This document shows positions 14,949-56,811 of a stretch of DNA of 64,000 nucleotides, in pieces; within the stretch, counting starts at the first letter, position 1; every line of letters begins with the position of its first letter. The DNA is taken from the NCBI GenBank assembly GCA_963922205.1, contig CAWUHX010000367.1, positions 62,001-126,000 of the forward strand, given 5' to 3'. This DNA is from Romanomermis culicivorax (Eukaryota; Nematoda; Enoplea; Mermithida; Mermithidae). Below the pieces are notes generated by a model, which saw only the letters and a program-made list of their open reading frames with translations, did no database searches and had not been told where the DNA came from. Made by a program: the position numbers and the translations under genes.

Positions 14949-16828
14949 CAGTGTTTTTTTTTTGTGCCAAAACATGGTTTTTGGCACAAAAAAATTTGGA
15001 ATGGCACAAAAAATTTTGGGCGTTTGTGCCAATTGGCACAAATTTTTTGACTAGTCGAATGCCGAATTTCTTTGATTTTTAGTCATTCTAGGTACTGAAA
15101 ACGGAAAATTTTCTCGGCGCTGCGCGCCGAGCTCACTGTTTTTTTTCCACATTTGCACTATAATGTGGAAAAAAAATCTGGAATGTGGAAAAAATTTTTG
15201 AGGTCTTTCCACAAATGTGGAAGAAAAATTTGGGGTTTTCATATTGAAAAGATGCATTTTGGTGCATTTTAGAAGGTCATAATCTCAAAATTTTCCGGCG
15301 CTTCGCGCCGGTAATAACTTTAATAATCATCATTATTCATTAAGTAGTTCAGGCGCGGCTTTTATCATGTCTACCTTCATTTATCACTTAATCTATAATA
15401 GTTTTCATCATCTTAAACGTAGTATCTCATGTTTTAATTGGTTATCTTCAACATTTTATCATAATATTTAAGGAAGATTCGCATTTTTTCCTTTTGAGAA
15501 AGATGAATACACGTCAAGTCTCTATGATTTATGATGCGATTATTTCTTTGCTAACGTAAAATCAATTCAAAAGCTTCTTGGAAATATCTTTCGGAAATTT
15601 ATATTCTTCTTACTCATATATTTTCGACCAAGTTCATGAGAGTTTACAAATAAAATACAGATTTTAAAATTTTTCAAGTAAAATTCTAGAAATTACGACT
15701 CTTGAACACTAAATTGGAATCTAATTCTTGAAATAAATGTTCGGAAAAATGATTTTCCAGCATCCTAGAATGTCAATATACCCAAAAAATTTTCCGGCGC
15801 TACGCGCCGGAAAGTACCATCTTTTTTGGGCTTTCACTTGTCATCAGAGAGGACTTGACCATTGATTTCTTGTGTAATTCAAGTCAATTATGCTCTTGGA
15901 TAGTTTGCTACAAAACTTGTTCAACAACGCTTGTAGATTAGGCTTTTAAGTCGAACATTTCAATTTTTCTCCAATTTTAATGAATTAACTTCTCTAAAAA
16001 CACCGGAAGGCTTGAAAAAGCTCAAAAACAGTGCGATAAAGCGTCTGTGAGCATTTTTAAGCCAAAAAACGGATTTTAAGACGAAAAAAAAATTTTTCCA
16101 CATGTGGAAAAAAAATTTGACCCCTTTCCACATTTGTGGAAAAAAGTTCGTGGAAAAAAAAACAGTGGCGCCGAGTCAATTACTCAAGTATAATATAAGT
16201 CAAGTATCAAGAATCCGGAAGGATTGTATTCGAATATTAGACTTGTATGATCGCAACAAACTTTGAGATTGTCAATGATTGTAAAATTAATTAGTTAACT
16301 TCCACTGTTCATTTAGTGTGATTGGAAACCGAAATTTTTATTTTTGGTGTTTGATTCCAACAGAAAAATTGACCTTGTTGGCACAATTTTTCAACCAAAA
16401 ATTTACGCGACGTGACTTCCGCTCTAGCTTTTTTCAGGAGAAATCATCGTCGACATCCTTAATTTATTTACATCGGTGTTAAGAAGAAATCCGTAGCCGA
16501 AAATTAAAGAAAAATATAAAATGCCTGAAAAATTGTATGAAAATATCTGAGTTCTCGCAGCATCTGATTTCTTTCCGAATCGTATAGACTGTTATCTTCA
16601 TTAGTTATTCTTATCGCACTGACGTGCTTAAGATAAAATAGAGTTGGCACGATTTTTTTGCAAATTAATGCGGCAAAAGTAACCTTTAGTTATGTTTTTA
16701 TCAAACTTTTTAAAAGTTTTCAGCATGTTTTTAGGCTGGAAAAAATTTTTTGTGCCATTGGCACAAATTTTTTTGGCTCTTTGTGCCAATTGGCACAAAT
16801 GTCCGTGCACAAAAAAAAAAACGCTGCT
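14949..16828. mobile_element. TGGCAC-word hAT-like element, split by a nested 1033 bp element
   Basis: Left end (cagtgtttttttttttgtgcc) and right end (gtgcacaaaaaaaaaaacgctg) are inverted. Between the T-run and the interior the word GTGCCA/TGGCAC is repeated, including the palindrome TTTGTGCCAATTGGCACAAA at both ends (about 15026 and 16780). It carries the subfamily hairpin ctcggcgctgcgcgccgag. The 1033 bp TTCCAC-word element sits directly beside that hairpin. Non-coding. Exact ends and target duplication not resolved. Confidence 0.65.
15134..16166 (+). mobile_element. 1033 bp TTCCAC-word hAT-like element, copy 1
   Basis: Termini CACTGTTTTTTTTCCAC and GTGGAAAAAAAAACAGTG. An inverted copy of exactly the same length, 1033 bp, lies at 50437-51469. 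It has repeated TTCCAC/GTGGAA words, two hairpins (15295-15311 and 15794-15810) and no ORF. Flanks share GCGCCGAG (15124-15131 and 16167-16174), but 2 bp separate the left one from the terminus, so the duplication is imperfect. It is inserted within the TGGCAC element. Confidence 0.8.
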
Positions 16829-16829
16829 A

Positions 16830-17440
16830 TTTTATTTTATATACACTGTAGATACACGGCATACTATATGCTCGTATTTGTGAAGAAAAGCTTGTCGATT
16901 GTTTCGTCTTACCTTTTGTGATTCATTACTGAGCCCTTCTTTCAGAATAAAATTGGAATATAAAAATGGAATCGGAATAAATAAAAAATGAATTATTGGA
17001 ATATTCGTATTTTGGGAATAATTTGTTTTTGTTTCATTGCTTCAGTGCAAAACTTTATTGGGCCGTAAAGGGCCCATGTAGAAACAAACACGCCGATCTT
17101 GGAACATCTCAAGCCTAACACTTTTCACTAGATCACTACGTAAATTGATAGTACTAAAAATAAAGTCGAAATCAGATTCGGGATGGTATCTGAAAAAGGG
17201 GTTAGATTCTGATCTTGAGCTTCAGACGTTTTATAAAATCTATACTCGTATTCGTAAATCTATTTGATTGCAAGTAAATAGCTTAACTTCGTATCAGTGT
17301 ATACGATCAAGTACTCTCACGGGTAGGGTCTCAAAGTCTGGAATCACACACGCGCTATACTGCATTCGATTGCACGGCAGTCACCTGAATAAAGTTACGA
17401 TGACCATTTTTCCCATAGGACTTCTGTTCACTGAAATTTG
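16830..17440. other. Non-coding, nothing recognised
   Basis: AT-rich unique sequence with short low-complexity runs; no splice-bounded frame and no clear repeat ends. Confidence 0.4.
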
Positions 17441-17442
17441 CA

Positions 17443-17680
17443 CAAACTTGCCTTTTCCGACGGAATGGAACGGAATGCGATCGACGGAACGAAGTCGAAC
17501 GAAAGGGGAATTTTCGTCCCGTCCAGTTTGGTTAGAAGTTACCGTCGGTCGTTTTCCGCAAAACTGCAGTTTTCCTTTCCGGCCAAAAGTGGATTTTCAG
17601 GCTGAACGTTTCAAGCTGTTGACGATCCGTCCCGTTCCGTTCCATTATTCCATCGGAAAAGGCAAGTATAAACGAGTCTT
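17443..17680. mobile_element. Fold-back MITE with ggaatggaacgga arms
   Basis: acttgccttttccgacggaa near 17448 is inverted at 17640-17665 (ttccattattccatcggaaaaggcaag), and GGAACGGA-like words recur inside. The right end continues gtataaacgagtc then TTAA, resembling the TTAA families, but the left end is degraded. A 168-codon frame through it (17268-17774) has no gene-like features. Confidence 0.5.
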
Positions 17681-17689
17681 TAAAGACGA

Positions 17690-19515
17690 ACGCCGCGTCT
17701 TATGGACATTATTTCAGTTTTCACACCTGTCTAGTTCTAGTTTCAGGTATCTTTCAAATTTTCCCCATTGCTGAGATTGGGTTTAGGTGAACTTATTACT
17801 GTAGGTCTCATTTCCGCAAGCTTTAGTGTTAGTATGACCTATGAACCAAACAGATTGGTGTAACATTACTCGCGCACCTATTGGATATCGAATGCATTAT
17901 AACGTGCAAATATTTAGAATTTACAAAAGAAGACCTTCCCTCGTCCGTATAATGCTGACCGTGACTTAATCCGTGCCCTCATGAGTAGTCTTGAAAAATT
18001 CCCTACCACAAATCAAATTGATATAATCTTGGTTATGGGCATCGCATCCATGAAACATATCTATTTCGGATCCATTGAACACCCTAGTAAACAGTTCACA
18101 AGATTCCGTATAAAACTGGTATCAGGCGTATTTGTTCTTCAATGATATAGTGAATCGGAAACAAATTGTTTGAATATCAATCCTCAGCTTGATCTTGAAT
18201 ACCAATTCATTAAAAAATCAGACACTTGAACTACAAAGGAAAGTTGGATCTTATGAATCAGAGCTAAGCAAATTATGTAAAAATAAGTCACCTGAAAACG
18301 TTTCCGAAATTTGAGAATTCTATAGCGTTTTTGATCTTAATTTGATTAGAACGATAGGCATGGTATTTCGATCCAGGTGACTATGATAGTCTATAAAGTA
18401 TAACAGATCTGAAATCTATCTGAGTAGGAACTTTGATTTTTCAATCTAAATTCGGATCGATTTTCATGCTATGGTTTTGATATGTAGAGTGTGAGAGTCG
18501 ATCAGGATTCGGAGCCCACTGAGTGCGCTGCTCTACACTTAGAGGATATAATTGGGCCGACCGGAGGAGAAGGGCACCTGTCGTAAAAACGAAAAACTAC
18601 TCCAGGAAATAATCGTCTAGATTACGGCTACCTACTACTACTGCAGATGCTTACGTCAGGGCTTTACTGCTATGCAGAGAACACGGCGAGGTAATAAACA
18701 ATACAATATGTTTCGACGGTTGTTTTTCTAAGTTTAGCCGGAATCTGATAACATCGCGGCCACACACACTGGCAAAGCACGCATACACTCAGGAGACGGA
18801 ACGGAGCGTCCACAAAAGAACGCAAACAAAATTGACGACAGAAAAACCAGACTGGATGAGGAACACGGAATATTACGCCCAAAAATTATGAAACTGTGAC
18901 TTACAACTACAAAATGATTTACGTAGGGAAATAAGAGAACGAGATTTATTTACTTTTGTCGCAAACAGATAGAAAAGTGGAGAATGAAGAAAAAGGTAGA
19001 ATAGAAAAAGAAAAAGGTTCCTATGCACGGGTTTAGGGGGTTTGAGGTCACTGGTCGTGTGCTTCAGGCAGCATCACTAACGATGTTCATTCACGTGATT
19101 TACAGGAGCAAAAAAAGTAATTTTGTATTGCGAAAATTTTTGCTGCGTCCGGCTGTGCAGCTGTGCAAAACAAAATCGGTTGGTATCTTAGTGCTGTTAC
19201 CTAGGAGGAGAATGATGTGCCATGGAAGATGCTAGAACTTTCAAAACAATGTGAAACTGTGCAAATTTTCAGTCTCGGATAAATATTTGAAGTGGAAGAC
19301 GAATACTGGCAGTTTCAGTTGTGCGAAATTTTATAGATTTTTGTCGTGATTGAAGTTTTTCTTCATATTATCTTGTCATAGAAATAATTGTTTTACTGTT
19401 AGTGTGACATTCGAAAATTATGCTATATGACTAAAAAGTTTTCACAAGAGCAACTGCATATCCTAAGATTTCTTGATATTGATTTTGATTCCACGAAAAG
19501 AGTTTTAACTGTAGC
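17690..19515. other. Long stretch without a recognised gene
   Basis: Mostly AT-rich, with a GC-richer patch at 18480-18860. No start, splice-bounded frame or inverted terminal repeat was convincing. Confidence 0.4.
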
Positions 19516-19519
19516 CTAT

Positions 19520-19950: not shown

Positions 19951-20227
19951 GTTGTCTGTTTTGACATTTACGAGAATTGAGGTGAAAATTTTCTAGATCA
20001 AGAATAAAAAAATGGTGAAGAAAATTCCTATGGAAAAACTGAAAAAAACTTGAGACAAGTCAGAAAAAATGAGAGAAAAAGCAGTAATTTCATTATTTAG
20101 CACAAATGACAATTTTTCATTGGTCTTTATTTGTATAAACACTAATGCATCGCTGAAGATCTTTCGAAAAATGATGCACTCGAGGGGAAGAATTTTTTTC
20201 GCTTGAAAACGAAAAAATTTGAAGCCT

Positions 20228-21437
20228 TCCCCTGAAGCCGGCGCCGGCCGGTGCCGGCTGGGAAGTATGAATAGATTTTTCTAATTTCTTCGGCGCCGCG
20301 CGGCGCCGCGCGTTACCACTTTCAAAGTTCAACTCAAACGAAATTTTCGAACAACTTCTGTGTTATAAAGCTGTAATATATTGTTGCTATGACATATTGA
20401 TGCATACTATAACATCTGTATATGCACTTCAATCACATTTTTTTACATGAATTGTGAATAATGACACTTTTCAAGTATAATTTTATCATGCCTCTTAGTA
20501 ATGCATGCACAACATAGAAATTCTGTTGGGAGTCAGCCAGTACAAGCAGCATGTTTTTTCAACATCCAAGCGGCATGTTTTTCAACCTATATTAGCCAAA
20601 TATGTGAAATTATTTGCTTGGATATCATTTTTTTAAAGTTTTAACGCTACTTCTTTGAATCAAGCATGCTTCGTTTGGAGAGATCGTTCAACTATAATAT
20701 CATTTTCTTTCGTCATGACTTTCTCTTCTCTCTTGATCATTTTTTTCGATCGTCATCTTCTCAATCATTGCAGGGTGGTCAGATCTGCTAGGGGGGTCAA
20801 TAGCCCCAAAGCCCCCTCCACGTGCACGTATGCTACATTAGGAAAAAATTCATCCTACATTCTGAAAAATCCATGATTGACAAGTTTTGGCCATGCACTA
20901 AAAAATTTTCCAGTGAAGTTTTTCCTGTAGTTTTATCCCAGAGGTATTATTTGACGTTTTCAGAAATAGATTTTCAGGAGGACTGGAAATATGTATAGTT
21001 CACTTTTATAAAATGTTTTTAAATTTAAAATGGACAAAGAATGGACCGCGCTCAAAGTCGTTTACACAAACCGTTTGCTATAGGATTTTTGGCGTAAAAA
21101 AATCTTGAGGATGAGTTGAGCAGACTGTAAATTATAGAAATATAAAATGATACTTGCTATTCACTTTTTTATTCACAAGCATTTTCAGAAAAAGAGACTA
21201 TAGGTTCTTGTGATTTCAAAATGTACAATGGAGATATGAATGTGGAAAATTATTAATATGTAAGGTAGGTGTAAACACGTTTCCACGACTTGATATTGTC
21301 TTAGCAATAAGCCAAGTGTAATTAGCAGTTCCAAAAACAATAAAAAACAACAGTGTCTGCAAATTTTTCGCGAAAGTATTTATTCAGAAAAAAAACCGAC
21401 ACCGCGCGGCGCCACTCGGCGTTGTATGGCAGGGCCT
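20228..21437. mobile_element. GGCCC-type TTAA element, second long copy
   Basis: Collinear with 4040-4260 (cgaaattttcgaacaa..., gacacttttcaagt...). It ends with tgtatggcagggcct before TTAA (21438-21441). The left end is degraded into GC palindromes (gccggcgccggccggtgccgg). A copy of the 423 bp hAT MITE (about 20500-20835) is nested inside. Non-coding. Confidence 0.6.
20500..20835. mobile_element. hAT-like MITE, divergent copy of 6189-6611
   Basis: Shares gcacaacatagaaattctg, gtcagccag, the ttgcttgg...aagttttaacg block and the C-rich right end ccccctccacgtgcacgtatg. The 8-bp flanking duplication is no longer clear. Confidence 0.6.
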
Positions 21438-21685
21438 TTAAACGTTTTCTCATCCATTAGAGTAGGGTTCTCACATAGCCATATTGGATATGATGTCTAT
21501 CACTATACGGCAACACAGCTAAAATATACTAGTGGTTGGGACTCATGGCGTGGTAGACTTTTCTACTTTTTGCTGAGAGGCCTGAGTGACCTGAAAATCT
21601 AAAATCTACTGGCTATGGTTCTGCCAGTATTCTGCACTGAGGTCAATAGTCAGTTTGCATAAGAGCAAGCACCCTGCAAGAACAC

Positions 21686-22493
21686 GGGCAAGTTCACTGG
21701 GCCAGCGGGTTCATTTGGCTAGCATATTCACTTGGTCAGGGTTTTCAGTTGGCCAGCTCAGTCAGAGGGCCAGCCAATGACTTCATAATAGCCGGCGTGC
21801 TGTAGCATAACGTGACACAGACACAATGAGAACATACATACTTTACATGGCAGAACTCATAAATAAACGACAAAAAAGTAGAGATAGTCATAAACAAAAA
21901 GGCCATAGCAAAAAGATCAGCTTGTGATCTGAAAAAGGCATGATGAGTAAAAAATTTCGACTTCAACGACAGATGATAGAATTACAGTAAAAAAAAGATT
22001 CATGTTTCAGCATGGAGATTTACTTCGATCCCTAAGCTCACCGTTTAATTATTGGGATTTTCAATCAACTTTCTGTCATCATTCTGAATCAACTCGTAGA
22101 AGATGAACCAGCACTCGTTTCCAGCTCCGTCTTGAGCACTGAAATCATTCAAACGATGGTTAACTCTTGTTAAGCTTCGCAAAAAATTACTGTAAATCGT
22201 ATAGATGCTGCAGATTTAGAACGAGTTATTTAAAGTACCTCAAAACAGTCACTGCCTCCATATGACTAATCCCATATATACCTATTTCTTGATTTTTTAA
22301 GTGAATAAAATATATCTATCAAAATGTATTTATTTTTTCAACATATCTCAAACTGCATTTAATGCTATCATTATATCTTACATACAGTACACACACTGCG
22401 ATAAAATGTCTATGCTGGTCAAAATATATACGTATTGGCTGGCCATCTGACTATGCTGGCGAAGTGAACTCGCTGGCCAAGTGGCATTCAATC
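21686..22493. mobile_element. 808 bp TIR element with 9-bp direct repeat and an embedded terminal exon
   Basis: CAAGAACAC flanks both sides (21677-21685 and 22494-22502). The ends are inverted copies built around ggccagc words: gttcactgggccagcgggtt at left, aactcgctggccaagtgg at right. A 9-bp duplication suggests a Mutator-like class (inference). It contains the exon 22045-22138. Confidence 0.65.
22045..22138 (-). CDS. Candidate terminal exon inside a transposon
   Basis: On the minus strand GATTTCAG precedes an open segment of 31 codons ending TAA. It reads AQDGAGNECWFIFYELIQND and continues DRKLIENPNN. The other two frames have stops, and composition is coding-like. No upstream exon was seen. 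It may be a captured host-gene 3' end, or the last exon of a host gene that the element surrounds. Family not recognised. Confidence 0.5.
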
Positions 22494-22903
22494 CAAGAAC
22501 ACTTATCACAGCAAGCCATATAGTCTGAGATTTATGGGGGGTTCCTATGCCACACCTTTAAGTCCGTCAGTTAATGGGAAAAAGTAATTGTAATAAAATG
22601 TCTGTTCTGCCGTAGCTGACCACAACATAGCAACACTAAACAGCATATTAAGCTGGGCATTGCCTGAAACAGTGTTCCCAATGTCTCGTTGATTTTTTGT
22701 GTATAAATGTCACGAAATGATGTCTATTTGCAGAACCCTCATCTGCTACAAAGTGATGAAAAAACGTTGTTTATAGTATGTTTTTTATAAATTAAAAAGA
22801 AATTATAGAAAAATAACCGCCCTAAAGTCGTTTATGCAAACCTTTACACGCAATCTGACATATCATTTTAAATATGTCTTTCATATATAAGTAGTTATAT
22901 GGG

Positions 22904-24925
22904 CCTGTACAGGGGGCACACTTCGACCTCAATGTGCCTTGACCGACTCGAACGTTAAATTTGATGATGCAATGTCTCCCAATTTTAATGCAATTCTTGA
23001 AATCTAACAATCTAACAGTTTTACTCGATTTTTACAAAGATTTTTGTTTGGAACACAATTTTTACATATTTGGGATATGTCTTTCGATGATTCCCTATGT
23101 AACCATTGTTTTCATGACATGTTTTTCATTTATTCGGGACACAATGTCCTATGCCTTTTTGTAACATGTGTCCCAAATACATGAAAAATGTGTCCTGAAA
23201 ACAATGGTTATGCGGAAATGATCAAAAAATGTGTTCCAAATATGTAAAAATTGTGTTTAGAACAAAAATTTTTGTGAAAAATCGAGTAAAACCATTAGAT
23301 CCTATGACCCTCTGACGTTTTTTAAATGATTTTTCACTAATACACAATACAAACAACAGACTATGGTCAACAACTGTAGTATCGATTTTTTTTCAATTTT
23401 ATACTTTGTTGTAATCTAATGGCTCTACAAAATTTTTGTACTATTTAAGCTAGTAAAAATGGGATCCTACTCTTAGAATCTGATGGCCTTTACTTGTTGT
23501 AACAAAACTTTAGTGTTAGACTTGAGGTCAGTATTACTATTGCATCTTAAGCAAGTCTCTACAACATTATAACATATAAAAAAGTTAAGTTCTAGCTGAG
23601 TACCAGCTTGGCCAGTATTTCTAAAAAATTGTTAAGCTGCAGCTGAGCAAGAGACTTAAGATTCAAGCTTAAGTCTTGAACTTAAGTCCATTCGACCATT
23701 AAGCTGGAGCTTAAGTCTGACCAGTATTACAAAAGTTAAGCTAGAGCTTAAGCTGCAGCTTCACATGAAAAAGTTAAGACTGGGGGCTAGCTGCTTTAAG
23801 TTGGTATTTTATGTTGTTATACAATAATGACTGGTCATTTGGTTATATTGCTTGGTGAAAGAGAATGTCAAGAAATCACATTTTTTGTGAATTTCTTTTT
23901 CATTTTTCATTTTCATTAAAAAGATCAACAAGAGGATCGATGGATGAATAAATTGAAGAAATTTTGATGACAAAAATGACCACAAAAAGCAAGGACAAAA
24001 AAGTGACAACGAAAAAGATGACGACAAAAATTGCAAAACTTTTCTTAGAAAATCGATAATGACTAATCACTTTACTTCATATATGCCATCCATGTTAGTA
24101 TTTTTCAATATGTTCAATGCATATAGATACTAGGTACTACTGTCGGATTATGCACACAGAAGAAAATGAACATCATAGAGACAGAATAAACCCACAAAAA
24201 ATGTTGATGCAAAAAGTTAAGCTACAACTTAAGTTTTGCTAAGCAGCAGCTTAACTTCTTAGTAATACCGACTCAAGCTGTAGCTTAACCAAGTTCCATC
24301 TTAACTTTCCACACAAAAAATACAAAGATGTAGTTAAGCAAGATGGTCATAAGCTCCAGCTCAAACTTAAGCTCCAGCTTTATAGTAATACTGGCCCCTG
24401 TTTTTCCAAGAACAATACAAAACAAAATAAACTGTCCAACAAACAATAAAACTATTGAAATGATTTATTGTAGACAAGATGGTCAATAGTTGATGCACAT
24501 GATGGTGACAAATTACCAGACAGTATAGTATTACAAATTTTAAAAAAATATAATGAGCTAAACAACTTCCTCCACTGGTGGAGTAAGTCTCTCTATAATT
24601 GTACTCCTCAGACCCCAATATAAGAGGGACACAGCCTGCAAGCATGCAAAAAAGGTAATTGGAAGCCCAATTCTGTCTGAATGGTCATACAGGTCATGAT
24701 GGTCATAATGGTAGAAAATGGTCTGCTTTATGTGTAAAACCTTGAAAAAGTCAATATATGATCAAACATCCTTTGTACAGGATCATGCTGTACTTGAAGG
24801 ACTACAAAATTATGATGTTACAAAAATGAACAGAGTGGCCACTTTGTATGTTCTATGTTGAACTCTTTGTCAAAAAAAGGAACAAATATGCATTATGCCA
24901 ACTTTTGTACTGGTATTTACACATC
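22904..24925 (+). repeat. Left Polinton TIR, interrupted
   Basis: Inverted match to 34305-35565 in blocks: ttcgacct...aatgtgcctt, the palindromic block near 23005-23300, gactatggtcaacaactgtagtatc, then gtgcatcaactattgaccat, accagacagtatagtatta and catgatggtcataatgg. The block from 23527 to 24395 has no partner and is an insertion. Confidence 0.8.
23527..24395. mobile_element. 870 bp TIR element rich in AGCTTAAG, inserted in the Polinton left TIR
   Basis: Left end gtcagtattactattgca and right end tatagtaatactggcc are inverted. The interior repeats AAGCTTAAG/AGCTCCAGCTTAA words near both ends. It is absent from the right TIR, so it arrived after the Polinton formed. No ORF is convincing. Confidence 0.7.
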
Positions 24926-25196
24926 ATTTCTGAAAAGCTGTTAGGTTAGGTTTGACACACAAAATTGTCTGAAGGGATCAATTTGCTATAGCATTTTACA
25001 AATAAAAAGGTTTTCATATGTTGTCATACTGTATTAGGGTGACTAATTCTTTTTTACTGTATGGCATTGACCACTGTCTTATATATCATTCCAGCAAAAG
25101 TTGGAATAAATGTGAAATGAAAAGGTAGGAAGTTTATAAGCACATTAAAGGTTATTATAATGTAGAAAAATTATATGTGTGAAACATGTAAAACTA

Positions 25197-25441
25197 TAGT
25201 CTGTTTTTTATAAAATGCTTCCAGATGCAAAAGTGACACAAATCAGTACGGTCGTCGAAATTGTTTACAGAAAGTTCTTACTGTAAAAGTTTTCACTCGA
25301 AAAATCGCTGAAGGTCAGGCCAGTATGCTCAGAAATTTCCAGCCCTACATGATATTTTGTTCATCAGAAAATCGCAAAAATCTGAAATACTACTTGCTTT
25401 CCACTTTCATTATTTGGAAGCATTTCAAGAAAAACAGACTA
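25197..25441. mobile_element. TA MITE (TAGTCTGTTTTT family), 245 bp
   Basis: Flanked by TA (25195-25196 and 25442-25443). Ends tagtctgttttttataaaat and catttcaagaaaaacagacta are inverted. Same length, 245 bp, as the copy 62062-62306. Confidence 0.8.
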
Positions 25442-26802
25442 TAATAAATATTGCTAGCAAAAGAAATTATGTAAGAGTATAACAAATGAGTGACAATTTC
25501 CTGGAATGTGCTCATAGTTTTATGCAATCCATAATTCTAGAAACGCTCAATCTAAAAGTTTGCTCATTTGTCTCTAAAATTTGGACAAGAATGACCACCC
25601 CATCCATAAAATTTAGCTTATAATTACATATAGCTTAGAGTAAATATCACATTAACAGTATACAGTAATTTTTTGTTTTTTCAATTTTTTTTACAGATTT
25701 TATTACAGCACAAACTTTGACTTCCCTTGACTGCATACATTTAGCTTCAACTGCACGGGAATCAATGATGCCTTGTTCTAAACAGGGTGTAAAAGAGTGT
25801 AAAGGACTCTTTTATTGGCTTAGTTTTTATGTGTTTTGTATTTTATTTTATGCTTCTATAATTTCATGGATGATGTAGGTGTTTCTGACTTAGAGTTGAG
25901 CTGCAATATATAGATTAGTATGACTATGAAAGCTGCATGAGAGTTGTCTTATGATTTTCAAACAGCTGCAGCACAGATTTTCGAGTGTATGTGTTTTGCA
26001 TTGTTTCTATTCGTTGAGTTTTCAAGATTGTTTACAAAAAATGCTATTTTCAAATGTATTTTTATTTTTTCCAGTAATTTACAGTGAATTTTATTGTGTA
26101 TAATTATTAAAAAAATATATTGCTATTAAAAACAGGGTAAAAACAGGAAAGAGAGAAAAAAGACCCTATACTTGTCGAAAAAGACCCTATACTTGTCGAA
26201 AAAAAGACCCTATACTTGTCGAAAAATCATATATTTCATTTGATATTTTGACAAGTGCATGATGTTTTTCCACTTCTGCTTTACAATGTTATGTTTTGAA
26301 GTATAACTATATGTCATGTGTTGAGAATTTACATATGTAACTTGATGCATCTTTCGATAAAGTGATAGATGCTAAAGTAAAGTAACTAAATAACACCCCA
26401 ATTTTTCTAGTATTCCAAGAAGTGTCAAGTAAAATCGATCTCTGATGTTAAATGACATTGTATTTTGAAACCCTTTTTATTTTTAATAATAAATGCAGGT
26501 AATGTGGAACCTTTCCAATTTGAACAAAGAAATGATGAGCTAAAATACATTAAAAATTCCATCAAACAAAATACAAAAACCATACAATAAGTTTGTTTCC
26601 TGTTAAATAAGCTGTATTAAACACACTCATCTATAAATCAGGCTAAAATCATTCATTTTCATAAAATAATACAATGTACTTCATCCAATTTATAATACAA
26701 ATTGTCAATGAAATCTGTGCATATTTCACATGCTTCTTCAAGTTCTACTATTAAAATCTGTGTAAAATAGCCAAAAGGTGTTGTCTTCTTCCAACCAATG
26801 GC

Positions 26803-27800
26803 CACCATTTTTTTCCTCAGAAAGATTCTTTTGAGGAAAAAAATTTAGGAACGAGGAAAAAAATTTTGGGTATGGTTCTCATTGTGGAAAAAATTTTGGT
26901 GAATTCAAAACTGAAAAGATACACTTTGTTGTTAACTTTAAAAGGCCAAAATCTCAAATTTTTCAAGGGCTTAGTCATTATTTTCTATCAGGCATGACCA
27001 TTAGCATAACTACTTCCACTTACTAACTAATGCTCAACAGGTTCTATTGATAAACTTGACTTGTCTCATTTTCCAATTGTTAACAGTCAATATTTCATCA
27101 AAAGTATAGATTTTTCATCAGTTCTCTCAATTTTTTTCTCTCAGGGCTTGGAATTTTACAGACATTTTTGACATGAAATTTTGGACTTGTAGATAATGCA
27201 GATTTAATGCATCATTCTAGGATGCATCTTTAGAACTTTATTGCATAAATATTTGTTGCAGAGATTCATTTTCCAGTGTTTTGGAATATGAAAACTCAAA
27301 AATTTTTGTGATGCCTTGTACTGGATTGAGGATCAAATTACACTTTATCTGTTCCATTTTAATCTATTTTTTAGTATTGTGAAGGTTCATTTTCCAGTGT
27401 TTTAGTAAGTGAAAATCTGAAAAATTTTTCTGATGCTCAGTGCTGGACTATGAAATGAATAAAGTTGGATAATTCTAATCAGAACCCTAGAAATGTTAAT
27501 AGCTGACAAATTCATGAGAACTCTATTGTTAATATGTTTTTTGCTTATGTGGAACAACAGAATATTATTCATCAGCTCAATCTGACTAACCTGTATAGAA
27601 TTTTCTCAATTTCATCCTCAGTTTTGCAGTTTATTGGCTCAAAAAACATAGGAATTCTTGTGTATGCTCCTAAAAACCAGAAAAAAGCACCCATGGCTAC
27701 ATTATAAACATTTTTGAAAACGTGGAAAATTTTGGGAGAGGAGCAAAAAAATTTGTGTTTGGTCCTCATGTGGAAAAAATATTTGATGAAAAAAATCGTG
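26803..27800. mobile_element. TTCCTC-word hAT-like element inserted in the Polinton, 998 bp
   Basis: Starts caccatttttttcctcag and ends with ...aaaaaaatcgtg. The skeleton matches the disrupted copy 44443-52868 almost throughout: gaggaaaaaaatttaggaac, tattttctatcaggc, agcacccatggctacattataaac. It supplies the empty-site comparison for the CTGCAC element at 45413. Non-coding. Confidence 0.75.
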
Positions 27801-28309
27801 AATAGGCATATTTGTCTTCACAAATCATCACACATCTCTGTTATTTGTTTATAGGAAGCATTCATTTCAGATGAAAAGAAACTTCAGAAAATATTGCTAA
27901 TAAGCATTTTTTTGTTTCTGCATTAAATGCTGATCTACAAATGATTTTACTACAAAAGTTTGAAATTATAATGTTTAAACTTTTATGTTGTTTTTTAGTA
28001 ACTGCAATAGCCCTTCAACCAATGCCGACATTTGTGTAGACTAGGCAATGGAGAATAAGCAACTATTCAATGGAAAAATTGTATCATAAACTGGAAAATA
28101 TAAACAGAAATTTAATTTTGAAGTATTAGTGTTGTTTTATCAGAGAATCTATTCCAAGGGAAAAAAATACTCAAAATACAACTATGCACATTCCACAATT
28201 TGTTTTTCACCATCATTTTACTTAAAGAGGCACACACACGAAACTATTGTACTACAATCAAACTAATAAAATCATCAATATTGATAAACAAATGTGATAA
28301 TTGTTTGAA

Positions 28310-28843
28310 TCATATCTTCGTTTTCGTTTTTGTAATCATAATTATTATCAATGAATTGCGATACAGTCTCCTCATCAATTTATGCCCATAAGTAGTAAAA
28401 AATATATTAGGGTAAATAGGAATCAATTTTTCCATTGCTTTGTAAGTCTTGCCATCATGCCACTCCAAGATATAACTAAAACAATTATCAATACATCCAA
28501 CTTTTTTATATAAATCAATAATTGTAGGAGGCATATTGGCATTGTAAATCAATTGATGCTCTTGATTTTTGTGACCCTTTACACAATATGATTTGAATCA
28601 GATACCTTTATAAAGGCTTTATAAAGGGACTCCACTGTATATTATAATATATAACTTTTCAGCACTAATGATGTTACAATAAATATACCAAGGATTTTTG
28701 ACACAACAGGGAATTTTCATGTTAACTATATGTTCAATAAAAGTTGAATCATCATAATCAGGATCCAAATAATTGATAAATAAACCAGAAGAGGAAAAAT
28801 GACTTTTTTCACAATTGGTAAAGGAGCTTGAAGAAGTGGACAT
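28310..28843 (-). pseudogene. Degraded reading frames inside the Polinton, unidentified
   Basis: Two minus-strand segments (28843-28619 and 28552-28310) look like pieces of one former protein, with phrases such as FINYLDPDYDDSTFIEHI and GCIDNCFSYILEWHDGKTYK. They run opposite to the polymerase and may be a lost Polinton accessory gene. I do not recognise the family. Confidence 0.35.
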
Positions 28844-29509
28844 TTCAAAGTATTATGTAAAGCATCATATTCTTTACTAATATATATAAAAATTTTGTTT
28901 CTATAATTTAGCCATTTCCAAACTTCCTAAATAAAAAATGCATTTTTCATTAGTTCATTATTGGGTTATTGGAAGAGGTTACCTGTTTAGTTAATTGACT
29001 ATTTCATCCTTTGTACAAATTGATTCATTTCAAGCTTCGGCCATTAATTTCAAGTGTCATTGTGTAGCCCAAACTAGTCCTGTATTATACATTGTCAATA
29101 ATTGATCTTTGAATTCTCAACTCATGATTTCCCAAAGTACAGTGTCAAGGTAGAAATATTTCGAACTTCAGTATAGCCCAAGTGTAGTCCATTTTTAGCA
29201 TTACTCAACTGAAATTGTTGTATCATTGATGGTATTGTCATTGTTGTCTGCAACAGTTGCATTGCTGACCGTGATGATAAGTTTTGTGTTTCATAACAAA
29301 ACAATGTATAATTTCCTAGTACAAAAACATTATAGTAGAGCAAAATAATTTAGCACAATATTTTCTGACTTTCCAACTTCCCAAAAAAGAGAGAGAATAA
29401 ACTTGGAAGCTCTGCTAAAGTTTTTGTCTATATGTAAATCAAAATTCTATATATGGTTTTGACCTTACCATATCAAGTTACTGCTATGCAATAAGAAAAC
29501 AGAACAAAA

Positions 29510-32500
29510 TTGTATGAATGTAATTTGAAACTTACAGCATTGAATATACAGATTTTGTTACGATTTTTTTGCTATAGAGAAGCAGTGTGTTTTTCAACTA
29601 TGCATCCTATATATGAAGATATTGGTTTAGAGGAAGAGTTTGAAAACATCAGTTTAGATTCATCCGATGATGCTAACATTGATCCAATCTTGGAAGATAG
29701 ATATAACTTCAGACGAAGAAGAAGAAAAAGAAGAAAATGTTGCACTATATGAAAATCCTGATGATGAAAATTAAATTTATAATTTTAAACTGTTGCGTCT
29801 TAACCCTAACAGTGCTGAATCAAATCAAGAAGGTTACAACTCTATTACTCCTGACAAATTTTTGAAATGGAGGATCATAGTATTATTAATATCCTAAATT
29901 TTTATATGCAAGGTCACAAATATTTATTACTTTTCTGCAATTTCGATCCTATGGACGATTTGAATAGTTGATTGATTCCAATTTTTCAAAGGATTATTGG
30001 TAGAGTATTGAAAAACATAGATGATGATGCTTAAGTTGACTTTTCATTCAATCATCCTGATTTAAAAGATGGGCAAGTCTTAGTTCTGTTTCAGCTGAAA
30101 CAAACTTTGGCTGATGAGCTAGTCTTCGATACTGTAAATGCTGTTTTACAATTAAAAGAGCAAGTAAATTGACAAAAGACAACCATTAATTTAAATGATA
30201 ACAGTAATTCCTCAGCAAGGTTTAGGTATCCATAATATTTATCAATACAAAATGCATAAAGACTCTTTGGAAAACAAACATTGTATTATTCAAATCAAAA
30301 ACACTGATAATATGTATTTTGCTCAAGCTCTAGTTGTTGCTATAGCTCACATTCATAAAGATGATCTGAATCTGAAATATAAGTGGGAAAATATTCGAAG
30401 ATCCAACAAACATATTGTTTTTCAAAAAAGGGTAGCTAAGCAGCTCATGCATAAAGCAGGCTCAAGCAATCATCAAGGATCTTGTGGTTTTAATGAATGG
30501 CCCAAATTTCAAGCAATTTTGCCTTATTATAAAATTAAACTTCTCTGTAAAGAGCAGTATAAAGTTTTTTGATCATAGCAATTATTGCGACTGTTGCAAT
30601 GCAGCTCACAATAAGAAATGCAGACATAGATATAAACACTTATGTAAAATGTGCTACTATAGTCCTCTCCATAATCAATTTTATGCATGAAAATGCAAAG
30701 ACTGCAATGGTTACGCTGAGAATGATGATTTTTAAATTGACATAAAAAAGTTTACACCCTAAAGCATGGAGTTTTGAAGCAACAGAAATCATCAGCTATA
30801 TGTGATTGGATCAAATGTTGTCTAGTTTGTAATGTCTTATATACTGGTTTCAATATCAAGCTGCGTAAATGCAGATACTTTACTTGTCATATGTGCAAGA
30901 AAGATGTTCTGATAAAAGTTTATAATTTTCTATATTTTACAAATGATTTTATGGGTGATCAATGTTATATGGAACTTAAAAGTGATAAAAATAGGTATGG
31001 CCCATGCATTAGCAATGATAATAATCATGATGATGATGAAAACAATCCAAATTATTTGGATAAAAATGAAATCATACAAAAATTTGTTTTTTATGATTTT
31101 GAAGGAACACAAGAAAAAGTGTTAAAGCAGAGCAAACATGATGATGTTTTGAAGCATATACCCAACTTATCTCAAGTGCATACTATATACAATGAACATT
31201 GTTGTACAAATGATGGCATCTGCAATTATTGCAAGAGAGAATGTCTTTTCAGAGGACAACAATGTCTGGAGGAATTTTGTTTTTATCTTTTCAAGAAGGA
31301 CATGAAAAATGTTACAGCAATCATACACAACTTGCGAGGTTTTGATGGTCAATTTATCATGCAATTTCTGTATTGAAATAGTCACAGTAAATTCGACCAA
31401 GGCAATAAAGGTATATGCAAATTTTCTAGAATTTTAAAAAACATTAGCATTCTTGCAGAGCTTGAGTTGATGTGTATTAGAGTCAGATCAGTTAAAATCA
31501 TTTGAAAATCACTTTCCACATTTTTTCAATGAACTGTCAAATGAAGGATATGTATGGCCATATCCTGCTCCTGATACGTACAGGTACAATAACATGAAAA
31601 ATGATGCACATCAAAAATTTTTGGAATGGTATTTTTGAAATGCAGTAATCACAGTTTTTTATTTATAATGCTTCTATTCTATTTTTAAAATTTTTAGGGT
31701 AATGTTTTCGATTCTGATAAAGAACTAGTCAAATATTGTAAAAGGGATGAACAAGTTGCATGCGATTTCATAATATTTTCATGGAAGACACTAATGTTAA
31801 TCATTTCGAAATTTCTTTCATTATAGCAAGGGTATGCAACGAAGTTTTCAAACAAATTTTTTTAAACCAAATACAATAAGATTTTTACCCTACAACAGGT
31901 ACAGACACAAAGAGACTATTATTGCATTAAAATGGATAAAATGGTATTCACATACCCACAACAATTTGTTTATATGGCACAAACTCAATGGCAGTGAAGT
32001 CCAAGTTGGTCAATATAAAGTTGATGGTATGTTGGGTAAGTTGTGATTATCTCTAAATTGATTTTTGTTAAAAATTATTTTATTGTAGGAAAAACAATTT
32101 TCAAATTCCACAAATGTTATTGGCATGTCTGTCCCAAATGTATGATTTGTCGAATTGAGTTAACAGCTGATGCTAAAATCCATGCAAAAAGAACTTATGA
32201 GTGAACAACTAGAAAAAATGTAGAACTGTAAAATATGGGTTATGTAGTCATTAAACTTTGGGAGTATGAATTCCTGAAGCATTTGTACAACAACAACAAA
32301 ATGAAAACTTTTTTTGATGCAATCAAAATTGTAGACTCAATAAATCCTAGAGACAGTGAACAAAATTTTTCTATTAATTGTTTTTAATTTTTCTGCATTT
32401 TTTGGAGGTTGTACAAATACAGTCAAATTGTATCATCAAATAAGACACAATTCAGATGGTACACCTGCAGAGAAAATTAATCATAGTGACATTTGCAGTT

Positions 32501-38330: not shown

Positions 38331-38332
38331 GA

Positions 38333-43799: not shown

Positions 43800-44335
43800 A
43801 CCCTCCCCCAACCTTGTCGGACCTCTTACAGGGACAGGCATGATTAAAGATTAAATGTTAAGTGAAGCTAGACATGCTAAAAGCATTGGCTGAGCTTGGT
43901 AATAAATAATAATGATTAACATACCTGTAATTGGGGGGATCAACCCTATACCCAACACCCCTCCCAAACTCGGAAAAATTGGGAAAAAAAAGTGGCTTTT
44001 TGGGGAAATTTTCGAAATTTTTTCGATTTTTTGGCGGTTTTTCGACCTCCCTTCCCAAAATTTTGGAAATGCTGGGACCCCCCCCCACCCCAAAATTTTG
44101 GGTTTCCCTCCCCCCAACAGGTCGGACCTCTTACAGGTATGATCATTAAAGTTATAAACGGCGGCGGGAAGCGCCGGAAAATTTTGAGATTTGAACCTCC
44201 TAAAATGCAACAAAATGCATCTTTCCAATATGAAGACCCCAAATTTTTTCTTCCACATTTGTGGAAAGACCTCAAAAATTTTTTCTACATTCCAGATTTT
44301 TTTTCCACATCATAGTGCAAATGTGGAAAAAAGTG
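43800..44335 (-). mobile_element. Truncated TTCCAC-word element carrying a nested C-rich MITE
   Basis: Minus-strand partial copy of the 1033 bp family: cattaaagttataaacggc, the gcgccgg hairpin half, cctcaaaaattttttctacattcc, ccacatcatagtgcaaatgtgg. The nested MITE occupies 43920-44141. Confidence 0.7.
43920..44141. mobile_element. C-rich hAT-like MITE, 222 bp
   Basis: Ends catacctgtaattgggggg and gacctcttacaggtatg. Flanks ATGATTAA (43912-43919) and ATCATTAA (44142-44149): an 8-bp duplication with one mismatch. Relative of 47877-48095. Confidence 0.75.
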
Positions 44336-45799
44336 TGTCGCAGAGCCGCTCTTCAAGAGAACGCACTCTCCGGAGCGTCTCTCGGTCACAGAAAATTTTG
44401 TGGAATCAATTTCCTCTCTTTCGCCTCTCCGAGAGCCAAGACCACCGCTTTTTTCCTCAAATAGGATCTTTTGAGGAAAAAAATTTGGAAATAAGGAAAA
44501 AAATTTTGGGTATGATTCTCATTGTGGAAAAAAATTTGGGGAATTCAAAATCGAAAAGATGCGTTTTGGTGCACTTTAAAAAATCAAAATCTTAAAATTA
44601 TTCGGCGCTTCGCGCCGGTCAGGGGTATAATAATCATTATTTTCTATAAGGCGCGGACGTTAGCATATCTACTTCCACTTACTAGTTAATTATCAACAGT
44701 TTCTATCAATCGAGTTAGCTCATCTCATTTTCTAATCGTTAACGGTCAGTATTTCGCTGAAAAAAACAATTTTTCATCAATTCTCTCTATTTTTTCTCTC
44801 GACGCCAAAAAATTTATGGGGGAATTCCCCCATAAATTTTTTAGAATAAAATTTTCAGCAACATTATTGTACTTACACATCACAATTTCCAAATAAAATT
44901 ATTGTATTTACATACTTTTCGTCAAACATAGAATTGAGCCACTAATCCAAGCACCTATAAACTAACTGAAAATAAGTCGTCTTTACTGCAAAAATTAATT
45001 TATTTTTATCCAGTAAATTCAAAAATTTTTTGGAAAATTCCCCCCTTTTTTGAAAATCTTGGATACGGGTATGCTCGACGCTTGGAATTTTTATAACATT
45101 TTTAACATGAACTTTTGGGTTTATTGAAAATGGAAATTGAAGACATCATTCTAGACTGTGATTTTAGAACTTCTATTCACGAAAATATCCGTTGGAGAGA
45201 TTTATTTTATAGCGTTTTAGAATACAAAAACTGAAAAATTTTTCCGGGGCTTCGCGCCGGAATGGGGAACAAATCATACTTCATCAGTCGGATTTTAATT
45301 TATTTCCCAGCGTGAATTTTCTCAATTTTTTCCTAATTTTTGCAGGTTTCTGCATCCAAAAGCATCAAAATGCTTGGGTATGCTCTTAGAATGCATAAAA
45401 AAGCACCCGTAGCACTGTTTTTTTCTGCACAGTGCAGACTTTTTAGGTTTCGTGCAGAATTTTTTGGTGATTTCTGCACCGGTGCCGAATTTTTTGAGTC
45501 GTGTGTTTGATCACATTGGATATCGAAAAGATGCATTTTGGTGCATTTTAGAAGGTCATAATCTCAAAAATTTTCGGCGCTTCGCGCCGGTTATAACTTA
45601 AATGAGCATTATTATTTATTTTCGAGCTCAAGTGCAGCTTCTAGCATGTCTACCTTCACATATCATTTAATCTTTAATAGTTTTCATTATCTTGAACGTA
45701 TTATCTCATGTTTTAATTGGTAATCTTCAATATTTTATCTTGATATTTAATAAAGATTCACATTTTTTCCCTGACACATTTTTTTGAGAAAGATCAATA

Positions 45800-48095: not shown

Positions 48096-50111
48096 ATTAT
48101 GCTCTTGGAATAGTTTGCTGGAAAATTTGTTCCACAATGCGGTATTACTGCGTCTGGTTCACACTCACCTTATAGCGTTAGCAACGCAAAAGGTACCTAC
48201 AGTAAACGTAGTAGCATGTTGACGTCATACAATAGACGCAAGTACTTGTGCATCGCGTTGTTTGCACGCAAAATTCAAAGCAGCTATTTGGTTACGCATC
48301 GCGGTTTCGGACGCTATGACCAAAATTTAGTCAACCTTTGACCCGAGTGACCTAAATGCTAACTTCACGAGTATAATTAGCTTGTGTTATATTTCGAAGA
48401 ATAATTATATGTTGTACTGTGTTAAATCGAGATTCAGACCAGTGATCCTCCGAATGACCAGTGGTCAACCGAATGACCAGTGGTCACTCAAGTCAACGAA
48501 CATATTTTTTGATGGAGAATTAGCCCATTAACTGGCAATTTGAATGTTATATAATTTTCACTCAAGATTGGTGCCCAGGAGTCATCCAAGTGACCAGACC
48601 AGCCGAGTGACCAGTGGTCAATCAACTCGGCGAACCTTTTCTTTGGCGGAGAATTAGCCTATAACTTCCATTTTGTGGCTAGTGATCATCCAAGTGACCA
48701 CTTCTGATGAGTGGCCAGTGGTAACTCAAATCAAAAGACGTTTTTTCTGATGGAGTACTACAAACACACAGAGTTATTATTTTTTCGTGACTCGACTGAT
48801 GTGTATTTGCATTTTTGCTCATCATCTATCGTGTTTTTTATGCTTTCCCTGTCCAATTTGTTTGTCTCTATTTCATTTGTGCTTGCTTTTTTTTCTTGAA
48901 ATGCTAATTTGCCTGATAGCTTATTTCTCAAATTTCAAACACATTTTTCACGGCTCATAAATTTCAAATTTTATTCAAATAAACATGCTAAATTGCAAAA
49001 TTGGTTTTGAAAGATATCTTATAAGATATACTTTTTCAAACATGTTCGCCTTGTTAAGGAAATATGTGAGTCTGCATTACAGCAGTATTATTGGAGCTTT
49101 TGGTTTCAAAATTGCATTTTTGCAGGTTGTTTGTGTTCTGTCCCTCAAGAAATTACAGATACAGCTCTGCCTGGTTCTGAAACTCTTTTCCCAGTGTCTT
49201 GGAAAATCTATCTGAAACAACAAATATTGAAAAAAAATTGATTTATTTGTAGCAAAAAATCATACTCATGATCAATTATAGTCGATTTTTTTCTGTTGCT
49301 GCTGAGTAATAAACCTGGAAAGCATGAGCTAGTTTCAAATTTTCGTGGATATTTTATTTTACATGTTTTATTTTTGAAGAATATTTTAGCATATTTGATC
49401 AGTTTTTTGAAAATTTTAGATCAAAACATCTGTTTTAAAGCCTAGTGAAGGTCATTTTGATGACAGTATGTATCTGCTAAAGGCATATATGATTCTATAC
49501 CTAGTGAATAATATATCTTCACTAAAAATTACTGATTATTATTTTGATTATGAAAAATTCTACTGCTGAATTGTAGTTAGTTTAAATATTCACAAAATTG
49601 TTTCAAAGTTCTGGAATAATTGGCTTTTGCTAAAATTTTATTTTCTGTCATTTTTCAGTGAAGTTTGAATTTTCTGTGAAGAAAAAGGTAAGCAGTTAGC
49701 AACTTCTCCTGAGCTTATTCTATCTTCATCATGGTGCATCATAGGGCAGGGGATTCCATTAGCAAGAAGAAAGTCTTTCTCGGAGCTTTCCATCCCCAAA
49801 ATTTAACAGATTTTTATGTTTCTTTCTCAAGGAAAATCTATCAAGTTCAAAGTTTCATACTGCATGCTGTGCAGGTTATTATTTGCATTTTCCCAAGATT
49901 TTTTGCAAGATGTACTAAGACAAAGAACGTGGGATAACACAAATTACTGTACCTTTAACGACAGTACGATATAATTCTCCAGCACAATTCTGTTTCGGAG
50001 ATAAAGGTCGATTATCCAGCTGTCCAATCGCAGGTAAGTTTGGTAGAAGACCATTAGCTATCACAAAATTGTTAGCAGATTCTTCTGAGATGCAAATGGT
50101 TGCAATTTCTA

Positions 50112-51639
50112 GGGATCGGCCGAGGGTAAAATAAAAAGCCTCGGCCTCGGCCGAGCCGAGGATTTTTGAAATCCTCGGCTCGGCCGAGGCCGAGGCCGAG
50201 GCCGAGGCCGAGGATTTTTTTAACATGATATTATATTAATACACTGGTCACTGGTAATACTAATAAGAGACTTCTTTACTCTTGCCTTTATGATCTTCAT
50301 CAAGTAATTCAAAACATAAAAAAATTTATTGTAAAAAATTTATTGTAAAAGTGTAACACTAAATAGGTAAATTAACGCAAAGATGTCTTCTATGCAAATT
50401 TTGTAGAATTTATGGAGTCAACCCGTCACTTTGATGCACTGTTTTTTTTCCACGAACTTTTTTCCACAAATGTGGAAAGGGGTCAAAATTTTTTTTTCCA
50501 CATGTAAAAAAATTTTTTTTCGTCTTAAAATCCGTTTTTTGGCTTAAAAATGCTCACAGACGCTTTATCGCACTGTTTTTTAGCTTTTTCAAATTTTCCG
50601 GTGTATTTAGAGAAGTTAATTCATTAAAATTGGAGAAAAAATTGAAATGTTCGACCTAAAAGCCTAATCTACAAGCGTTGTTGAACAATTTTTCTAGCAA
50701 ACTATCCAAGAGCACAATTGACTTGAATTACACAAGAAATCAATGGTCAAGTCCTCTATGATGACAAGTGAAAGCCCAAAAAAGATGGTACTTTCCGGCG
50801 CAAAGCGCCGGAAATTTTTTTGGGTATATTGACATTCTGGGATGCTGGAAAAGCATTTTTCCGAACATTATTTCAAGAATTAGATTCCAATTTAGTGTTC
50901 AGGAGTCGTAATTTCTAGAATTTTACTTGAAAAATTTTAAAATCTGTAATTTATTTGTAAACTCTCATGAACTTGGTCGAAAATATATGAGTAAGAAAAG
51001 TATAACTTTCCGAAAGATATTTCCAAGAAGCTTTTGAATTGATTTTACGTTAGCAAAGAAATAATCACATCATAAATCCTAGAGACTTGACGTGTATTCA
51101 TCTTTCTCAAAAAGAAAAAATGCGAATCTTCATTAAATATTATGATAAAATGTTGAAGATAACCAATTAAAACATGAGATACTACCTTTAAGATGATGAA
51201 AACTATTATAGATTAAGTGATAAATGAAAGTAGACATGATAAAAGCCGCACCTGAGCTACTTAATGAATAATGATGATTATTAAAGTTATAACCGGCGCG
51301 AAGCGCCGGAAAATTTAGGGATTTGGACCTCCTAAAATGCACCAAAATGCATCTTTTCAATATGAAAACCCCAAATTTTTCTTCCGCATTTGTGGAAAGA
51401 CCTCAAAAATTTTTTCCACATTCCAGATTTTTTTTCCACATTATAGTGCAAATGTGGAAAAAAACAGTGCTTTGATGCAGTAAACATTTTACATCAAAAA
51501 TATCCTACTTGCTTTAGAGTTGCAAATAATCCTCGGCCTCGGCCATTTTTGATCGACACCCTCGGCCGAGGCCGAGGGTGGCCGAGGGTACCAATCCTCG
51601 GCCGAGGCCGAGGCCGAGGCCGAGCCCTCGGCCGATCCC
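50112..51639. mobile_element. TIR element with CCGAGG hexamer ends and TA duplication
   Basis: Ends GGGATCGGCCGAGGG and CCCTCGGCCGATCCC are perfectly inverted and flanked by TA (50110-50111, 51640-51641), like mariner-type insertions. Both ends run into tandem CCGAGG hexamers (50145-50215, 51530-51630). Most of its length is the nested 1033 bp element. Confidence 0.75.
50437..51469 (-). mobile_element. 1033 bp TTCCAC-word hAT-like element, copy 2
   Basis: Perfect 8-bp duplication CTTTGATG (50429-50436 and 51470-51477). Ends CACTGTTTTTTTTCC and GGAAAAAAACAGTG. Near-identical to copy 1 (15134-16166) in reverse orientation and the same length, so both moved recently. Hairpins at 50795-50811 and 51293-51309. 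Deepest level of the nest. Confidence 0.88.
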
Positions 51640-53057
51640 TATCTATAATATTGGGGTTTGTGCCCTGCAGAGCCATTTTGGTGGTATAGACAGCAAACAA
51701 AAGCAAAAACAGCAGAAAAAGACAACAATAAACTAGAACTGTGAAGTTTCTACAGTAAATGGGCTACAATAGTTTAATTTTTAAGTTTAACACCATCAAA
51801 AACTCACCTTTTATATACACAGTAACCGATTTTAAACCAATAAACTTCAAAATGAGACGGAGTAATCGGGTGACCTGAGGGAGCGGTCACTTGGATGACC
51901 CTGATCACCAATCTTGAGTGAACATTAGATAACATTCAAAACGTTAGTTATAGGCTATATTCTTCACCAAAAAAAAGTTTGCCGAGTTGATTGGCGACTG
52001 CTCACTCAGATGGTCTGGTCACTCGGATGACCCACAGTCTGCTTTTATTCAAAATTACGGTGTATTTTTAGTACCATCCATCAGAAAAAACGTCTTTTAA
52101 TTTGAGTGACCACTGGCCATTCATCAGGTGTGGTCACTTGGATGATCACTAGCCACAAAATGGAAGTTATAGGCCAATTCTTCGCCAAAGAAAAGGTTCG
52201 CCGAGTTGATTGACCACTGGTCACTCGGCTGGTCTGGTCACTTGGATGACCCCTGGGCACCAATCTTGAGTGAAAATTAGATAACATTCAAAGTGCCAGT
52301 TAATAGGCTAATTCTCCATCAAAAAATATGTTCGTTGACTTGAGTGACCACTGGTCACTCGGTTGACCACTGGTCATTCGGAGGATCACTGGTCTGAATC
52401 TCGATTTAACACAGTACAACATATAATTATTCTTCGAAATATAACACAAGCATTATACTCGTAAAGTTAGCATTTAGGTCACTCGGGTCAAAGGTTGACT
52501 AAATTTTGGTCATAGCGTCCGAAACCGCGAATTGTAACCAAATAGTTGCTTTTAATTTGCGCGCAAACAACGCGATGCACAAGTACTTGCGTCTATTGTA
52601 TGACGTCAACATGCTACTACGTTTACTGTAGGTACCTTTTGCGTTGCTAACGCTATAGGGTGGGTGTGAACCAGACGCAGTAATACCTGCAGAAATTTTT
52701 TTCTGACTTTTCTGCACTGAGCAGATAGCCCGGTGCAGAAAAAAAACACTGATCCGTAGGCACATTATAAACGTTTTTGAAAATGTGGAAAATTTTTGGA
52801 AAATGAGGAAAAAATTCTGGGTCCGGTCCGGTTCTCATGTGTAAAAAATCTTCGAGGAAAAAAAGGTGGCCAAGACAGAGCAAATGCAAATATCGAGACG
52901 CAGTGAATTGCGATTTGCGAGAAACACTTCTTTGATCAGGCGCAGATAATTACAGTAAAAATATTTAGAATGGAAAAAGTTATGTTAAATAGTGCACATG
53001 TTTGTAATCTTGAGAATGTCGGACATCTTCAAGGAATCTATCAACATCGCGTCTGAG

Positions 53058-56810: not shown

Positions 56811-56811
56811 A

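Follow-up and report, generated by a model that had tools for sequence, protein, structure and literature searches.

A group of short transposons in the nematode Romanomermis culicivorax raises an open question: how can a protein that docks at about ten sites simultaneously come to recognise another word? The DNA analysed is a stretch of 64,000 nucleotides (the window), part of contig CAWUHX010000367.1 (C367) in an assembly of 359 Mb and 595 contigs. It contains fragments of an ion channel (PF02932) and of a reverse transcriptase (PF00078) besides numerous repeats, and it carries ends of transposon families that share one end layout. The repeated word of four to six letters differs by family: TTCCAC/GTGGAA in E1, TGGCAC/GTGCCA in E2, TTCCTC/GAGGAA in E3 and CTGCAC/GTGCAG in E4. 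A fifth measured family, E5 (TTCCCC/GGGGAA), was found in a 340-kb local set of stretches (labelled L) used for element comparison besides the window. We believe, with a probability of roughly 0.6, that this word series represents subterminal transposase sites replaced stepwise after a change in specificity, in a clade of hAT-like miniature inverted-repeat transposable elements (MITEs). Since complete, alternative and half-finished states coexist in a single genome, the DNA should reveal in what order the sites were replaced.

A common end layout with different words

A preliminary description of this DNA had marked eight coordinate blocks of the window as word-bearing transposon ends, and all eight (8/8) are such ends. 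The common skeleton that it proposed also holds. Counted from the first word, the words lie at 0/+18/+38/+62/+70 in left ends and at 0/+14/+22/+46/+52 in right ends, nearly alike in all families; the offsets match within 1-2 bp among E1, E2, E3 and E5, with common orientations. In E4 the order of the left words is the same and the first spacer is shorter. The positions and orientations from the tip are given below.

Left words: E1 14+, 32-, 52-, 76+, 84-; E2 16+, 35-, 55-, 78+, 87-; E3 16+, 34-, 54-; E5 14+, 52-, 76+, 84- (site 32 of E5 reads CGGG)
Right words: E1 17+, 31+, 39-, 63+, 69-; E2 31+, 40-, 63+, 71-; E3 16+, 61+; E5 15+, 29+, 37-, 60+

The own word occurs 10 times in E1, 9 in E2, 5 in E3, 8 in E4 and 12 in E5, counted in one left end (100-105 bp) and one right end (80-90 bp) per family. 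Shuffled ends gave means of 0.11-0.58 and maxima of 2-6 (2000 shuffles each), and words of foreign families occur 0-3 times in a family's ends. All four words of the preliminary description are therefore real, and the set exceeds four, E5 being the fifth one measured. Among 61 printed ends a T-side word matches an A-side word in 19, against a shuffled mean of 4.65 and a maximum of 13 in 2000 shuffles, a test that is weak because the families are non-independent and near-duplicates were dropped by eye.

The CCGGCGC/GCGCCGG hairpin that had been counted as part of the terminus is missing from the copy at 26803 and doubled in the complete E1 copies of the window, and therefore is not a fixed part of it. 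The two E1 hairpins lie at 15295-15311 and 15794-15810 in one copy and at 50795-50811 and 51293-51309 in the other; similar hairpins are also present in E3 and E4, and no role was found for them.

The elements referred to in the text are as follows; positions are those of the window, except for the last.

14949-15053, plus strand: E2 left end (CAGTG-T10), with five GTGCC/GGCAC words at the positions given above
15134-16167, plus strand: E1 MITE, 95.8% identical to 50437-51469, nested in the G+C hairpin of E2 (15113-15130)
16737-16826, minus strand: E2 right end (CAGCG-T11), with four words at the positions given above; its first site reads GTGCA
26803-27369, plus strand: E3 copy, left end with innermost GTGGAA, without G+C hairpin
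44139-44337, minus strand: truncated E1 left end
44443-44800, plus strand: E3 left end and inner part; innermost word GTGGAA, third word AAGG
45413-45799, plus strand: E4 left end, with 84% identity to E1 in its inner part
50110-51641, plus strand: member of a second transposon group with tips TAGGGATCGGCCGAGGG and repeated word CCTCGGCCGAGG, host of the nested E1 at 50437
50437-51469, minus strand: complete E1 of 1033 bp with exact target duplication CTTTGATG
52690-52751, minus strand: E4 right end (CAGTG-T8-CTGCAC)
52762-52866, minus strand: E3-type right end (T-run-CCTC), adjoining the E4 right end
L020:1845-2863: complete E5 with duplication CAACAAAA

The E1 copy at 15134-16167 has GCGCCGAG on either side, the left one two bases off the tip, and no matching 8-bp duplication was seen around the E2 copy at 14949-16826. 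The insertion of the E1 at 50437 recurs with its flanks at L045. At 26803 and L001 the same E3 copy is found, in duplicate. The left and right E4 ends of the window do not belong to one copy; at C33:73081-74614 two E4 ends form a pair separated by 1.5 kb.

One substitution in nearly all words of E1 and E5

E1 and E5, compared as one copy each with their family status resting on genome counts, align over the full 1 kb with 85.7% identity; the identity of non-word letters at positions 181-940 is 660/749 (88%). The change T>G (A>C on the other strand) is found in nine of the ten E1 words, at both ends. Elsewhere the two differ in 4/30 of the other word columns, 39/153 (25%) of the terminal non-word columns and 92/817 (11%) of the interior ones. 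The hypergeometric P for the word substitution is 8.3e-12, for which about 12-fold should be allowed as the column and the change were picked post hoc. With the same change in 9/10 words against an interior divergence of about 11%, one letter has thus been changed nearly throughout both ends. This bears out the earlier statement that the word is altered at nearly every position at both ends, here between homologous elements. E5 (GGGG) and E1 (GTGG) are both complete states, and a single substitution separates their words.

Word states across the genome

Left ends were counted genome-wide by exact patterns on three left-end words, on both strands and with the reversed pattern as a control; such patterns leave out ends mixed at a single inner site. 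There are 192 (103+89) GTGG ends, 106 (53+53) GGGG ends and 83 (36+47) GAGG ends, and each reversed control returned 0. For the GTGG type such discordance is almost absent, in keeping with the preliminary description: 1 end combines a CCAC first word with two non-GTGG inner words, against 192 concordant ones. Other letters stand behind the T-run at 404 and 325 places (two patterns; reversed controls 1 and 0). The 120 rows with letters include many degraded E1 to E5 ends together with GGCG (C12:863105, C15:546832), GGCT (C34:1304273, C36:1544905), GTGC (C1:790434 and others) and GTAC (C3:707273), words that were called by eye and are less secure.

E3 is a mosaic of two words. With the half-site TTCTCATT as anchor, left ends were tallied in 28 rows from 27 places. 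Of these rows, 25 have CCTC as their first word and 26 have GAGG at both middle sites, whereas 27 have GTGG at the innermost site, where the exception (L010) has GTGC. In right ends the outer word is CCTC and the palindrome is TTCCACATGAGAA (TTCCAC) in 9/9. E3 is hence not uniform in TTCCTC/GAGGAA as had been described. A comparison by eye of 40 E3 places with the list of 83 all-GAGG ends gave an overlap of 0, and the all-GAGG ends therefore form a further set.

What do these states say about concerted switching of the words, as first proposed? Between E1 and E5 the words did change at nearly all positions. Strict concert is nevertheless unsupported because E3 is fixed in a half-switched form, 37 ends with a CCTC first word are discordant, and another family has palindromes of GCCCC and GAGG. 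Mixed words within single elements, named in the preliminary description as evidence that would speak against it, do occur, namely in E3 and in the family with unequal palindromes, and on this criterion the proposal fails in part. The E3 mosaic argues for sites replaced one by one, and on the sequences compared the mosaics would be better explained by replacement site by site than by gene conversion of all sites at once. It may also be that in the half-switched E3 one word is preferred at some sites and the second word at others, which here looks the same as a switching intermediate.

Features pointing to hAT-like MITEs

Twelve local elements (two E1, nine E3 and one E5) are flanked by 8-bp target duplications that have no more than one mismatch, and 10 of these duplications are exact. 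The two E1 entries (window and L045) share their flanks and therefore represent one insertion copied with its surroundings. E1, E3 and E5 are about 1.0 kb long and have T-rich inverted tips, and the words GTGG, GGGG and GAGG have 83-192 exact left ends each. No open reading frame (ORF) of at least 120 residues was found inside the two E1 copies of the window, and none above 90 residues in the E1 copy at L045. Short length, many copies, inverted tips and the lack of coding capacity are the marks of MITEs, or non-autonomous DNA transposons; the 8-bp target duplication and the subterminal repeats near both ends are those of hAT elements. The hAT tip consensus is YARNG, which CAGTG and CAGCG (E2 and part of E4) fit and the tips of E1, E3 and E5 do not. 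P superfamily elements make target duplications of 7-8 bp, with which the 8-bp ones here are also compatible. From these features the E families appear to be hAT-like MITEs; their hAT membership is provisional because an autonomous relative was not found and the P-type model is silent in the controls as well.

Proposed mechanism and alternatives

In the mechanism that we propose, a clade of non-autonomous cut-and-paste elements of about 1 kb would be mobilised in trans by related transposases. Each end would offer about five rigidly spaced subterminal sites (NNNN-AAA), docked by several DNA-binding domains of a multimeric transposase, most likely BED zinc fingers; the complex would set the spacing and the finger would set the word. 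Once a transposase lineage changed its preferred word, copies with more matching sites would be mobilised better, so that sites would be replaced one after another on an unaltered skeleton. E3, with GAGG outside and GTGG innermost, would then be halfway through the switch and would have spread all the same. The zinc finger of the cognate transposase most likely binds these words near the tips; they are taken as docking sites because the ends resemble those of hAT elements in their fixed offsets and orientations, 8-bp duplications and palindromic word pair, because Hermes has a BED site pair, and because BED motifs match hAT subterminal regions. In favour of the proposal, matches to the hAT dimerisation domain and to BED are numerous in the genome. 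A new transposase specificity is a plausible cause of the word change. More tentatively, at least nine docking words (GTGG, GAGG, GGGG, GGCAC and GTGCAG measured; GGCG, GTGC, GGCT and GTAC by eye), each with its A-run on one skeleton and with fixed half-switched intermediates, could reflect a stepwise change of code without loss of function. The partner transposases, if found, would each come with a known word, and such BED finger-word pairs could serve to work out a recognition code and to build orthogonal transposon vectors.

Several observations weigh against this proposal. The tips CACTG and CACCG of E1, E3 and E5 carry C at the third base and misfit YARNG. Ends with a CCTC first word and two non-GAGG inner words number 37 genome-wide, against 83 with GAGG, and 20 of the 37 span 81 bp, concordant GTGG, GAGG and GGGG ends mostly spanning 86-90. 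The further family has unequal palindrome halves, GCCCC or a relative against GAGG, at seven printed places (C1:974406 and C22:954369 are examples); such calls, made by eye, are not as firm as those for the five measured families. Among the 340 listed ends compared, 240 by script within 10 kb and 100 by eye, no transposase gene turned up between E-type ends. About a dozen of the 340 have a hAT or BED match within 10 kb; at the places inspected (C160, C24, C142 and C54; C1, C3, C11, C17, C28, C39, C116 and C191 were left out) the match lies outside the E-type element or within other tips. The partner may sit among the unscored candidates, as 150 were scored per domain family, out of 1837 for the hAT dimerisation domain (PF05699) and 799 for BED (PF02892).

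The words might instead have moved with whole ends: gene conversion or template switching would have carried terminal blocks of about 110 bp from one family into another, changing every word in one event and leaving the interior as it was. E4 and E1 are 84% identical from position 108 inward with no long alignment outside it, and this break, together with the more diverged terminal spacers of E1 and E5 (39/153 against 92/817 in the interior), leaves room for whole-end exchange; the outermost non-word columns of E5 are also closer to E3 (21/26) than to E1 (17/27). We nonetheless consider such exchange unlikely, as the inter-word spacers of E1 and E5 can be aligned at both ends, the other word letters are mostly kept (4/30 changed) and E3 is a fixed mosaic of two words. 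That the families are unrelated MITEs, alike only in their A/T runs, is scarcely credible. The best matches of E2 to the E1 interior are indeed only pieces of 25 and 31 bp, at the hairpin and the end skeleton. For E1, E5, E4 and E3, however, the idea is already contradicted by homology, over the whole length for E1/E5 and in part for E1/E4 and E1/E3, and the offsets are common to 1-2 bp.

Two further alternatives concern the protein that reads the words. It is improbable that the elements belong to the P superfamily and that the words are sites for THAP domains: the 8-bp duplications agree with it and Galileo termini hold multiple THAP sites (passages of PMC3688188), yet the P-type transposase model PF21787 gave 0 candidates in the genome against 1837 for hAT and 799 for BED, a zero that is no proof of absence, as control genomes were equally silent. 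Sites for host factors, such as transcription or silencing proteins, would find a parallel in the targets of VANC, which in passages of PMC5735166 are short repeated non-coding motifs that vary between related elements. Spacing and orientation of the sites are fixed here, and at both ends the sites stand no more than about 90 bp from the tip, as expected of a transpososome and not of regulation, which makes host factors quite improbable readers. Stepwise replacement of transposase sites accordingly would remain the preferred explanation.

Candidate partners and neighbouring elements

Several genes were considered as partners and rejected. Two 864-residue hAT genes (C77, C126) have tips CAGAGCC/CAGGGCC, those of another family; the two open copies, at L041 and L042, lie in elements of 3896 bp with exact 8-bp duplications and are apparently recent. 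The hAT gene on C24 lies beside a complete E1 and between other tips, and that on C142 lies outside E3. A BED copy at L044:1604 sits in an element with tips TAGGGATGGGCCGG; another BED copy, on C15 (L046; a stretch of 351 bases without tips), matches it at 95% identity. The initial suspicion of a BED remnant within E1 proved mistaken. The longer E3 copies at L013, L016 and L019 show gaps against the 1-kb E3 that are taken as insertions, and translation of L013 revealed no transposase by eye. A further candidate is a right end at C11:7321, which lies 1.6 kb from a hAT dimerisation match at C11:8911 in the expected orientation.

The second transposon group has tips TAGGGAT(C/G)GGCC. Its member at 50110-51641 repeats CCTCGGCCGAGG, and the element at L044:461-2005, which has an 8-bp duplication and carries the BED copy, repeats GGATCCGGATC; the related L046 copy has an open BED frame of 64 residues. 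One kind of tip may thus occur with different words in this group too, and BED frames are present there.

Two other features of the window were noted. A stop-ridden remnant on the minus strand at 53300-57500 resembles a hAT gene by eye, and its 138-residue ORF has no Pfam match. Positions 21030-30000 are 99.6% identical over 8988 bp to C367:146001-154988 (L024), about 63 kb away on the same contig, which reflects a recent duplication or an uncollapsed haplotype.

Comparison with known systems

The comparison draws on passages of PMC10368747, PMC3143072, PMC5735166, PMC3688188 and PMC8097297. The BED domain of Hermes binds a quasi-palindromic pair of sites behind the inverted repeat, and its left and right site arrays are asymmetric (PMC10368747). 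The elements described here likewise repeat short sites behind an inverted repeat, with a palindromic pair among them, arrays that are asymmetric between the two ends and an 8-bp target site. Hermes, however, is one element with one motif (AAGT/C), whereas at least five measured families here carry differing words on one skeleton. BED proteins derived from hAT elements, among them those of CGGBP and hAT-19, are related and read widely differing motifs, and for four proteins encoded by hAT elements the motif recurs in subterminal regions of the respective transposon models (PMC8097297). That work describes the protein side; the present series of switched sites is its counterpart on the DNA.

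In the VANDAL/VANC system of Arabidopsis, related elements have diverged in short non-coding motifs, and the protein reading these motifs has diverged with them. Those motifs are tandem repeats for anti-silencing in MULEs, while the sites here are dispersed and rigidly spaced at the tips. The THAP sites of Galileo (P superfamily) and the CGATTCAT sites of Herves likewise give several transposase-binding sites per element, but the passages considered describe no set of related families whose word is exchanged on a common skeleton. Searches of the open-licence literature listed no published description of word-swapped families on one skeleton. Precedents are known in the Hermes BED sites, the CGGBP motifs and VANDAL/VANC, to which the present series of words on one skeleton is added.

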